NCBI RefSeq assembly: GCF_009760925.1 | Contig: NZ_VRLV01000005.1 | Location: 434,001-498,000, forward strand | Origin: Nonomuraea typhae | Lineage (GTDB): Bacteria > Actinomycetota > Actinomycetes > Streptosporangiales > Streptosporangiaceae | Direction: 5' to 3' | DNA length: 64,000 nucleotides | Shown: positions 2,894 through 64,000 of the stretch, one piece after another | Position numbering within the stretch: the first letter of the stretch is position 1 | Layout of the letters: each line of letters begins with the position of its first letter | The notes under the pieces: generated by a model | What the model saw: only the letters and a program-made list of their open reading frames with translations | What the model was told of the DNA's origin: nothing | Databases searched by the model: none | Made by a program: the position numbers and the translations under genes

Positions 2894-5800
2894 ATGCGAG
2901 TCGGATTGCTCGGGCCGTTCGAGGTCCGGAACCTTGACGGGGATGTTGTGGAGGTTCCGGGGGGACGGCTGCGCGCGTTGCTGGCCGCGCTCGCCCTCGA
3001 ACCCGGCCGGATCGTCTCGCGGGCGCGGCTCGTGGACTGGATCTGGGGGGAGCAGCCGCCCGCCGACGAGGTCAACGCCGTGCAGGCGCTGGTGTCCAGG
3101 CTGCGCAGGGTGCTGCCGGACGGTGTGATCGAGGCGGACTCCGGCGGGTACCGCCTGGCCGTGGACCGCGACGCCGTGGACGTGAGCCGGTTCGAGCACC
3201 TGGTCGGTCAGGCCCGTGCCGCCGAGCCCGCGGAGAAGGCGGAACTGCTGCGCTCGGCGCTGGCGTTGTGGCGCGGCAAGGCCATGGCCGACATCGCCCT
3301 GCACGACAGTGAGGTGTTCGACGCCGCGGTGGCGCGGCTGGACGAGCTGCACGTCGCCGTGCTCGGAGACCGGGTGGCCGCGGACATCCGCCTGGGCCGC
3401 GGCTCGGAGCTGGTGTCCGAGCTGACCGAGCTGGTGGCCGCCTATCCGCTGCGCGAGGGGTTCGTGGCGGCCCTGATGCGGGCCCTGGCCGAGGCAGGGC
3501 GTGAGGCCGAGGCGCTGACGTTGTTCCAGCGGACGCGGGAGCGGCTCGCCGACGAACTGGGCGCCGACCCGTCGGCTGAGCTGTCGGCGCTGCACACCGC
3601 GTTGCTGCGCGGCGAACTGGGCGAACGGGCGGAGAATCGCAGGACGAACCTGCGCGCCGAGCTGACGAGCTTCGTCGGCAAGGACACCGACGTCGCCGCG
3701 GTCGCCGTTCTGGCCATCGGGCACCGGCTGGTCACCCTGACGGGACCGGGCGGCACCGGCAAGACGAGACTGGCCACGGAGACCGCGCGGACGATGCTGG
3801 CCGAGCTGCCGGACGGCGCGTGGCTGGTCGAACTGGCCTCGGTGCCGGTCGGCGGCGACCTGGCGCAGGCCGCCCTGACCGCGATCGGCCTGCGTGAGCA
3901 GGCACTGCTCGGTGACGCGCGGGCCGGAGAGCCGATGGACCAGCTGATCGCCGTGCTCAGGGAGCGCGCGATGTTGCTGATCCTGGACAACTGCGAGCAC
4001 GTGATCGAGGAGGCCGCGGCATTCGCGGATCGGCTGCTCGGGGAGTGCCGCAGGCTGCGGATCGTGGCCACGAGCAGGGAGCCGCTCGGCATCACCGGGG
4101 AGGTGCTGTGGCAGGTCGAGCCGCTCGCGCTGCCCGCGAACGCGGCGGACCCGGCCGAGATCGCTTCCTCGCCCGCGGTGCGGTTGCTGCGCGACCGCGC
4201 CGAGCTCGTGCGCAAGAACATCGGCTCCGATGCGCCCACGCTGGCGGCCATGGCGCGGATCTGCCGGGCGCTGGACGGGATGCCGCTGGCGATCGAGCTG
4301 GCCGCGGCACGGCTGCGCACGATGTCCGTCGATCAGCTGGCCCGCCGACTCGACGACCGGTTCCAGCTGCTGACCGGCGGCAGCCGTACGGCGCTCTCGC
4401 GCCACAAGACGCTGCGCGCGGTCGTGGACTGGAGCTGGGACCTGCTGTCCGAGGACGAGCGCAGGGTGCTGCGGCGGCTGTCGGTGTTCTCCGGCGGGGT
4501 GAGCCTGGAGGCGGCCGAGCGGGTGTGCGAGGACGCGGAGGCGGCGGGGGAGCCGGTGCTCGACCTGCTGACCGCGTTGATCGAGAAGTCGCTGCTGCTG
4601 GCCGACGGCGAGGGGCTGCCGCGGTACCGCATGCTCAACACCATCCGGGAGTACGCGGACGACCGGCTCGCCGAAGCCGGGGAGACCGAGTCGGCGCGCC
4701 GGGCCCACCTCGCCTACTTCACCGAGCTGGCCGAGACGGCTGATCCGTACCTGCGCACGGCCGAGCAGCTGACGTGGCTGGCCACGCTCGAGGCCGAGCA
4801 CGACAACATCGGTACGGCCCTGCGCGGGGCGATCGCCGCGGGCTGGGCGGCGGAGGCGATGCGGCTGCTCGGGGCCGTGGGCTGGTACTACTTCCTCAGC
4901 GGGCGCCGGGGCGAGGGCACGGAGCTGAGCATCGCGGCCTCCTCGCTGCCGGGCGAGGTGCCCGATGACGTGCGGGCGCTGGCCTACACCCAGGCGGCGG
5001 TGTTCGTGAGCTCCGGCGTCGGCGGCGATCAGTACCAGGCGCGGGAGTGGATCGAGGGAGCACACCGGTTCGCCCAGCGCAGCGGGTCGCGCAATCCGTT
5101 GCTCGGGTTCGTCGCGCCGCTGGCGGCGATGCTGAAGGGGCCGGAGGAGTTCCTGCCCGCGTTCGACGCGCTCGTCGTCGCCGACGATCCGTGGGTCCGC
5201 GCGCAGGCCAGGCTGGCCCGTGGCCGGTTGCGGCTCACGCTCGGCGGCGACGAGACCGACGTGGACACCGACGCCGAGACCGCCCTGGCCGAGAGCCGCA
5301 CGCTGGGTGACCGGTGGGGGATCTCGCTGGCGCTGGGCTTCCTGGCCGATCGGCTGGCCATGCGCGGGGAGTTCGCCCGTGCGGTTGAGTACTTCGATGA
5401 GGCGGTCGTCGCGCTGACCGAGCTGGGCTCGACCGAGGACGTGGCCATCACGCGGGCGCGGCAGGCTCAGCTGTACTGGCTGATGGGCGACCAGGCGGCC
5501 AGCGCGTCCGCCATGGCGGAGGCGGAGCGGTGGGCGGACGGGATCACCTGGCCGGACGCGCTGGCGGAGCTATCGCTGTCGAAGGCGAGGCTGGCGCGCT
5601 GGCGCGGCGAACCGGACCAGGCCCACCGGCACCTGGCCACCGTGCTGGCGATGCTGGACAACGGGGAACTGGGCGCGTTCGTCCACGCCGCCGCCAACGA
5701 CATGTACGGCTACCTCGCCGAGGATCTCGAGAAGGCCCGCGCCTATCGGAGCGAGGCGTTCCGCGCGGCCACGGAGAGCACGCATCCGCCGCTGATCGCC

Positions 5801-62658: not shown

Positions 62659-62751
62659 CATGCTTAAACACAAACGCGTTCTACTATGTGGGACTATTTA
62701 GGCATCCTTAATGGTTTGCACCTCTGTATCGTGGAGACCAGGAGGTGCACC

Positions 62752-63411
62752 ATGGGTTGGCTGTTCGGCAAGAAGACATCGATGGTCCATCCGGAGGACG
62801 CCCTGTCAGGGCGCTCGACCCGCATGAAGATCCCCGCCCGCCACGCGGTCCTGGACGCCCCGCTGGCCCCGCCGTACCCCTCGGGGCTGGAGATCGCTGA
62901 CTTCGGCCTAGGCTGTTTCTGGGGCGCCGAGCGCAAGTTCTGGCAGACAGAAGGGGTGTACACCACCGCCGTCGGCTACCAGGGCGGCTACACCCCCAAC
63001 CCGACCTACGAAGAGGTCTGCACCGGCGCCACCGGCCACACGGAGGCCGTCCGCGTCGTGTACGACCCGGCAAAGGTGTCCTACGAGGAACTCCTCAAGC
63101 TCTTCTGGGAGGCCCACGACCCCACGCAGGGCATGCGCCAGGGCAACGACGTCGGCACCCAGTACCGCTCCGCCATCTACTACCACACGCCGGAGCAGGA
63201 AAAGTCCGCCCTGGCCTCCCGCGACGCCTACCAGAAGGTCCTGAAGACCTCCGGCTACGGCGACATCACCACAGAGATCGCCCCGGCCCCGGAGTTCTTC
63301 TACGCCGAGGACTACCACCAGCAGTACCTTCACCGCAACAAAAACGGCTACTGCGGAATCGGCGGCACTGGAGTCGCCTGCCCGATCGGCCTGACCTCGG
63401 GCGAGGCGTAG
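62752..63411 (+). CDS. msrA: peptide-methionine (S)-S-oxide reductase MsrA
   Basis: A 219-residue methionine sulfoxide reductase. Catalytic C55 lies in [10 protein letters not shown]; the signature [18 protein letters not shown] and [11 protein letters not shown] follow. C-terminal cysteines in [14 protein letters not shown] are candidates for recycling via disulfides. An N-terminal extension of about 45 residues is typical of actinobacterial and enteric forms. AGGAGG stands 6 nt before ATG 62752, in contrast with the leaderless genes nearby. It repairs oxidised methionine in proteins. Confidence 0.96.
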
Positions 63412-63558
63412 ACCTGCGTAGATAGCTAGATCCTGGCCCTGGATCGCCCGGCGCAACCCGGTGTCGATCATGGGCCAGAGCCGTTCTCGGCGACAAGTTT
63501 CTCTACAGGGTCAAGGGCTCGCTTCGCTCGCCGCGCCGCCGCCCGCTCCGGGCGGCCA

Positions 63559-63598
63559 GCGCGCCGGGCATGCGGCCTGGGGGCCGGTCCCGGCGCGC
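63559..63598 (+). repeat. large GC hairpin downstream of msrA
   Basis: GCGCGCCGGG (63559-63568) and CCCGGCGCGC (63589-63598) form a perfect 10-bp stem; an inner CGGCC-TGGG-GGCCG stem-loop sits at its tip. It starts about 150 bp after msrA. No T-run follows, so a terminator role is uncertain. Confidence 0.7.
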
Positions 63599-63762
63599 GC
63601 CGCCCACCGCTCCAAGGCGGCGCGACAACCCTTCAGCCATCTCCTGGAGCATCAAGGCCGTTCCGTCACCGGCCTCCACCGCTACGCGGCCCCTGCGGGG
63701 TGCTGCGCATGGACGCCGGCCACTGCACTCCCCGATCGATCACCCACGGGCCGAGGTCCGTA

Positions 63763-63926
63763 CCCCCGCCCCCGATACCGCAGTGTTCGTGTCCCTCGGT
63801 CGGCGTCAACTCCGTCTGTGCGGCGAAAGGGGTGGGCCGCGTGGAACCTCACAGGGCTGAGGTCCGGGAAGACGGAGTTGACACCTCGGTCGGGCCACAC
63901 AGTCCGGCAGCTATCGGGGGCGGGGG
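63763..63926 (+). repeat. nested inverted-repeat element with a predicted three-way-junction core
   Basis: Outer arms CCCCCGCCCCCGATA (63763-63777) and its exact complement (63912-63926) enclose inner arms GTCAACTCCGTCT (63805-63817) and its complement (63870-63882). Inside lie two further stems: 63818-63824 with 63836-63842 (7 pairs, two G-U) and 63843-63851 with 63858-63865 (8 pairs, one bulged A). The inner three stems form a three-way junction with only a GGGA linker. CCTCGGTCGG flanks the inner element directly on both sides (63794-63803, 63884-63893), like a target duplication. Confidence 0.75.
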
Positions 63927-64000
63927 AATGTGGGCCGTGCCAAGCCCCTGAAGGGCTACCGGACATACCCGGCCAGCAGCGCGCCCCAGATCTCCCGTGT

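Follow-up and report, generated by a model that had tools for sequence, protein, structure and literature searches.

A folding palindromic site tied to pSAM2-type integrative elements of Nonomuraea and related genera: a candidate single-strand origin

The genome of Nonomuraea typhae contains, about 350 bp past the gene msrA, a 164-bp nested palindrome that is not overlapped by any convincing gene among the open reading frames of the window. We refer to the palindrome as E, and to the whole 64,000-nucleotide stretch of DNA that was analysed (G000:C44:434001-498000) as the window. The locus raises the question of whether E is a transposable palindrome, the template of a structured RNA, or a site that acts as folded DNA. 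The features of the locus are, by position in the window:

62686..63411, plus strand: open reading frame, which we take from its protein sequence to be msrA (methionine sulfoxide reductase A)
63312..63411, plus strand: 3' end of msrA, probable attachment site; copies recur downstream of msrA in the genus
63509..63531, plus strand: conserved 23-base motif GGTCAAGGGCTCGCTTCGCTCGC left of E, recognised by its recurrence
63763..63926, minus strand: E, candidate single-strand origin, a cis-acting folding site; minus is the probable folding strand
63763..63777, no strand: left arm of the outer stem, a 15-bp perfect inverted repeat with 63912-63926
63794..63803, no strand: direct repeat 1, CCTCGGTCGG, which in the consensus fold contributes to one side of a symmetric internal loop
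63802..63817, no strand: left arm of the central stem (GTCAA...), covarying
63818..63869, no strand: apical region, two short predicted stems in the window copy; differs among relatives
63870..63885, no strand: right arm of the central stem (...TTGAC), covarying
63884..63893, no strand: direct repeat 2, second copy of the 10-bp repeat CCTCGGTCGG
63912..63926, no strand: right arm of the outer stem, pairs with 63763-63777
63956..64000, minus strand: 3' end of a small open reading frame of a recurring family without a Pfam match; extends past the window to 64255

The palindrome and the decayed element at msrA

The palindromes and the 10-bp direct repeats of E are real and not a product of chance. 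The window contains four groups of 13-mer inverted-repeat pairs, two of which are inside E, and Markov controls (n = 10) produced 0-3 such pairs per 64 kb. As the original prediction had described, a perfect outer repeat of 15 bp encloses a perfect inner repeat of 13 bp, and CCTCGGTCGG is located on both sides of the 80-bp core. The 13-bp perfect part (63805-63817 / 63870-63882) belongs to an inner inverted repeat of 16 bp with a match of 94% (63802-63817 / 63870-63885). The 80-nt core folds better than its shuffled versions on either strand (z -4.2 plus, -6.6 minus; 0 of 200 shuffles as good), and the 148-nt stretch around the core is unremarkable (z -0.1 on plus and -1.6 on minus, matched by 87 and 11 of 200 shuffles, respectively). 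Two further 13-bp perfect inverted-repeat pairs are present elsewhere in the window, at 5498/5553 and 31002/31159. A 13-base direct repeat, GGGCYGAGGTCCG, found at 63748-63760 and 63854-63866, joins the left flank to the tip of the window copy.

The last 70-100 bp of msrA are repeated on the same contig and strand, up to about 22 kb downstream, in 26 of the 54 genomes of the genus (counted by eye). Because of this recurrence, the 3' end of msrA is a probable attachment site, and the sequences suggest serial integration of elements at msrA. A tRNA was also considered as the attachment site of the window copy; none was found nearby, and the msrA 3' end fits instead. In genome G075, up to five copies of the msrA 3' end, msrA itself counted, lie within about 11 kb. 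One contig (G071:C2) starts with a copy of the msrA 3' end (1-99), which is followed by E at 447 and, beyond it, by rep and a serine integrase gene. Three more genomes, G141, G155 and G157, carry E in the same msrA neighbourhood. The motif GGTCAAGGGCTCGCTTCGCTCGC is located 208-254 bp left of E, with at most three mismatches, in six element-bearing stretches (the window, the second copy of the same genome, G071, G009 and two copies of G012), lies farther left of E in two more, and may be another part of an origin or attachment site.

The window copy of E sits in a decayed element, the int, rep and tra genes of which are not intact. A fragment of repSA (C44:500033-500782, profile positions 179-435) lies 2.1 kb from E, and no integrase or Tra was detected within 9.7 kb with the queries used.

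Copies, subfamilies and a shared fold

The genome of N. typhae contains a second copy of E on contig C12, 96% identical to the first, and more copies are distributed across the family. BLAST identified E in 12 of the 54 genomes of the genus and in 39 of 341 genomes, or 12 of 68 genera, of the family. An exact 19-base pattern retrieved 14 stretches, seven from Nonomuraea, three from Thermoactinospora and one each from Microtetraspora, Streptosporangium, Herbidospora and Myxococcota; the last is a chance match of 22 bases (L031) and was dropped. A covariance model built from 32 full copies of E (R1) matched 71 of 345 genomes and 23 of 70 genera of the order, all coded as the host family, which says little of other families since nearly all genomes of this sample belong to the host family (341 were in the family search alone). 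Within the genus, R1 matched 16 of 54 genomes, to which a core model spanning all three subfamilies described below (R3), run on part of the genus, adds at least G010 and G035. R3 matched 15 of 394 genomes of the class, all of them in the host family, to which at least 35 of the 394 belong. It detected up to ten cores per genome, and recovered 28 of 30 genomes preselected by an R1 match; the two misses, G022 and G026, have copies without the core. A further model, R2, gave two weak matches in another family (E-values 7e-5 and 1e-4). The plasmid and phage collections contained no DNA match to E, and in three records of the plasmid collection that have RepSA no E was seen above an E-value of 0.6. 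Titles and abstracts of the literature yielded no description of the site; subscription papers, including those on pSAM2 replication, were largely outside the reach of this search.

The copies form three subfamilies. Subfamily 1 (32 aligned copies) keeps the 10-bp repeat in both positions, mostly with at most one or two bases changed. Subfamily 2 (25 aligned copies), which was defined by weaker R1 matches, differs in its stem arms, and most of its copies have GAACC in both direct-repeat positions. Subfamily 3 was defined by core-only matches and has different outer arms.

One fold is common to the three subfamilies and is backed by compensatory base changes. In subfamily 1, 96.6% of the cells are paired, compared with 93.4% in shuffled alignments, and 27 cells are changed on both sides, compared with 11.4. 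In subfamily 2, the paired cells amount to 95.5% versus 86.5%, and 15 of 41 pairs are compensated, which 1 of 500 shuffles equalled. The joint core of the three subfamilies (43 copies) has 96.9% paired cells versus 76.7%, with 10 of 14 pairs compensated, a value attained by 0 of 500 shuffles. Shuffles and slid controls were thus beaten on pairing and on both-side changes in all three alignments; the paired-cell count is favoured by the derivation of the structures from the same alignments, which makes the both-side changes the fairer measure, and all cell and site counts come from related copies and are non-independent events. In subfamily 1 alone, four pairs changed on both sides compare with 2.8 in shuffles, 92 of 500 of which reach four, and the number of further pair types was matched by 97 of 500. 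The two adjacent inner stems of the original prediction are predicted for the window copy, but their branching is not alike across the eight copies that were folded.

The wobble pairs point to the minus strand as the probable folding strand of E. When read on this strand, subfamily 2 has 107 G-T cells, spread over 24 column pairs, compared with 8 A-C cells in 7 column pairs. The strand preference of subfamily 1 is weak (46 against 14 cells, 15 against 13 column pairs). The R3 score of the window copy is 60.1 bits on the minus strand and 28.8 on the plus strand. The fold had been proposed to form only as a plus-strand RNA; both strands fold, and the comparative evidence favours minus. A plus-strand RNA is disfavoured by the wobble counts, for which subfamily 1 alone is not decisive. 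A tip string near CTTCGCGTGT occurs in many copies of all three subfamilies and is absent from the window copy.

The same alignments bear on the proposal of a MITE-like transposable element in which an insertion, flanked by a target duplication, is nested. E has terminal inverted repeats and occurs in several copies per genome, and the copies of G022 and G026 are without exactly the core and one repeat. However, the core-bearing form is the usual one, the stems are upheld by compensatory changes, and the orientation of E relative to rep is fixed (see below). The repeats do not differ between insertions, as a duplicated target would: subfamily 1 retains a near-identical 10-bp repeat from genus to genus, and most of subfamily 2 has its repeats replaced pairwise. 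Therefore, the reading as a MITE with target duplication is rejected as very improbable. The core-less forms look instead like later precise deletions, judged from sequence: the G022 copy has a flank similar to that of the core-bearing L043 copy, and the case for G026 is weaker. Of the proposed choice between a MITE-like element and a structured RNA, what stands is that E is palindromic, present in repeated copies and conserved in its structure.

Orientation of E in elements with RepSA

E is tied to pSAM2-type integrative elements. Its neighbours include RepSA (PF20199), serine or tyrosine integrases and GntR regulators and, next to subfamily 2, FtsK-type Tra. The order of the genes recurs in two layouts: integrase-rep-GntR-cargo-E-small ORFs (layout 1) and cargo-E-small ORFs-GntR-rep-integrase (layout 2). 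RepSA is located within 10 kb of 26 of the 51 copies in subfamily-1 loci. In 15 genomes, 29 of 85 E sites have RepSA within 15 kb, with 1.8 expected at random, and the 56 sites without it may include contig ends and remnants. In the first set of the genus position table, 30 of 45 E sites have no RepSA within 15 kb among the RepSA matches listed. All 54 genomes of the genus have RepSA and R1 finds E in 16, so that RepSA elements do not need E.

Where RepSA is near, its direction is constant. The nearest RepSA within 15 kb lies on the folding strand of E at 58 of 58 sites, 29 of 29 in each of two position tables; 28 of these sites were new to scrutiny, a number from which G154:C1:988394 and G000:C12 are excluded since their Tra direction had already been seen, and the weaker opposite-strand rows of five palindromic sites were left out of the 15-genome test. 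In the fetched loci, the RepSA-type gene is always on the minus strand of E (26 subfamily-1 copies, 6 of subfamily 2, 4 others and 4 core-defined loci); these loci overlap the position tables and their counts must not be summed. Tra is likewise on the folding strand, in 10 of 10 loci having it and in 5 of 5 core-defined loci. The direction of the integrase is not strict: the serine integrase of L212 is on the opposite strand, and G071 has a second integrase. The position of E is free: among the 29 sites of the 15-genome table, rep is on the 3' side of E in 20 cases and on the 5' side in 9, and the gap to the nearest rep ranges from 0.4 to 13 kb. In these elements the main genes mostly share one direction, and therefore part of the orientation pattern could be a legacy of common descent. 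A repSA gene containing one in-frame TAG is located at G000:C12:916591-918018, on the expected strand and 11 kb away from the second E copy of that genome.

According to the main rival reading, which we consider unlikely, the integrative elements would transcribe E in the direction of rep into a structured non-coding RNA, which might for instance regulate copy number or entry exclusion. The covariation of E matches that of RNA families in strength, the strand bearing G-U pairs is the rep-sense strand, and the tip string is shared by the subfamilies. On the other hand, no sigma-70-like promoter, the only type searched for, was found in 63300-64000. On the 5' side of the folding strand, 22 of 39 copies have a hairpin of 8 bp or more within 90 nt, which is thus common and not universal and leaves little room for a promoter; in the window copy this hairpin has 5 bp, no more than in shuffles. 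E has no constant neighbour gene, and an RNA gene located on either side of rep would not need to share the direction of rep. Rfam contains no family that matches the window at gathering score or four E-bearing loci at E-values up to 1, in agreement with the earlier statement that no known family fits. The TPP riboswitch, which had been called a poor fit, likewise has no match in the window at gathering score, and motifs like E could be misfiled as riboswitch-like RNAs.

An extremely improbable reading is that E separates cargo genes from backbone genes as an insulator or bidirectional terminator. E is intergenic and often located between convergent genes, but 63300-64000 contains no T-tract terminator, the directions of the genes on the left side vary, and the conservation of the loop and repeats probably exceeds the needs of a terminator.

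A clt site for double-strand DNA transfer by TraB/TraSA, with small elements using a helper, is quite improbable as well. The many E loci without Tra nearby would need mobilisation, and Tra, where found, faces the same way as E. However, subfamily 1 has Tra within the fetched stretch of 2 of its 51 copies, compared with RepSA at 26, and clt is described in the part of PMC4170104 available to us as 8-bp TRS repeats, not as a covarying hairpin.

In the layout-2 loci of genus g51, the right flanks of E are alike over 0.9-4.5 kb, whereas similarity between the left flanks ends abruptly at the outer-stem base. The lepA-hemW region of this genus (L063, L066 and L067) is a second integration hotspot with variable low-GC cargo beside E. 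At 8000-10356 of L067, two copies of E 2.2 kb apart enclose two low-GC genes in an arrangement that resembles an E-bounded cargo module.

Such breaks could be taken to indicate that RepSA recognises E as a double-strand origin or as the terminus of the rolling circle, where slips join new cargo at the left edge, and HUH initiators, which cut at hairpins, would suit this role. We regard it as improbable. The gap to rep varies, and 38 of the 54 genomes of the genus have RepSA and no E by R1 (at least two of the 38 have an R3 core). Moreover, the divergence of E tracks the host genus more than the element type. Among 20 loci with a long RepSA match, pairs from the same genus with different element types have mean distances of 0.148 for E and 0.408 for Rep, and pairs from different genera with the same element type 0.223 and 0.247, respectively. 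The distance of E correlates with genus at r 0.67 and with element type at r 0.24 (p 0.016), and that of Rep with element type at r 0.87 and with genus at r 0.54; E and Rep distances are still correlated with each other (Mantel r 0.51). That E follows genus more than type indirectly favours a host-recognised site over a Rep-specific origin, which is the less likely of the two (n = 20).

A proposed role in replication, and known systems

We propose, with a probability of about 0.55, that E is a single-strand (minus) origin of pSAM2-type integrative elements, which folds on the displaced strand and is primed by a host factor. The rep-sense fold, fixed orientation, free place, host tracking and presence on several element types are what is expected of a single-strand origin. 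Such origins have a fixed orientation relative to rep, and in pSAM2-type elements the leading strand would run in the direction of rep. Like them, E is a non-coding, extensively base-paired site, faces one way relative to rep at 58 of 58 sites while its position is free, and is located on a rolling-circle replicon, though over half of the 85 sites lack a near rep. PMC4170104 describes, in the part accessible to us, that single-strand origins are served by host factors and that their loss leads to a build-up of single-stranded DNA, and the accessible part of PMC3218068 that RepSA binds and nicks the double-strand origin of pSAM2.

In the proposed mechanism, a pSAM2-type element would, once excised, replicate as a rolling circle, with RepSA nicking the element and one strand being displaced. 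The minus strand of E, of the same sense as repSA, would fold on the displaced strand into a long imperfect hairpin, in which the outer stem is followed by a symmetric internal loop, built from two similar direct-repeat motifs, and then by the central GTCAA/TTGAC stem and a tip that is conserved in part. The fold would be recognised by RNA polymerase or primase as the host factor, which would prime the complementary strand. The folded molecule would thus be single-stranded DNA, and we infer that E primes second-strand synthesis. We further speculate, as a doubtful extension, that new cargo is always joined at the base of this host-recognised hairpin, which would unite replication and gene capture at a single site. 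If this were true, E would represent a new class of structured nucleic acid that marks and enables the exchange of cargo.

E is a widespread folding site absent from the libraries searched. That E and the rolling-circle initiator gene point in one direction is a rule to be tested, and the priming of the lagging strand in actinomycete integrative elements becomes directly testable. E could also help to recognise elements that have decayed and to construct vectors for these hosts.

Several known systems share properties with E. The attC sites of integrons act as a folded single strand at the end of small-gene modules, where E is likewise found, but E shows no attC core boxes by eye, and we know of no link of E to IntI. 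With pSAM2-type AICEs, E shares the neighbours RepSA (PF20199), integrase, GntR and sometimes FtsK-type Tra, whereas Tra is near E in only 2 of 51 subfamily-1 stretches and the window copy is a remnant; the portion of PMC3218068 seen by us that covers the pSAM2 element mentions no E-like site. The closest likeness, based on features and not on sequence, is to sti of pIJ101 and similar minus origins of rolling-circle plasmids, which are also large, folding, non-coding sites of free position. Unlike these, E resides on integrated pSAM2-type elements and comprises three subfamilies with swapped arms and an internal loop of paired direct repeats.
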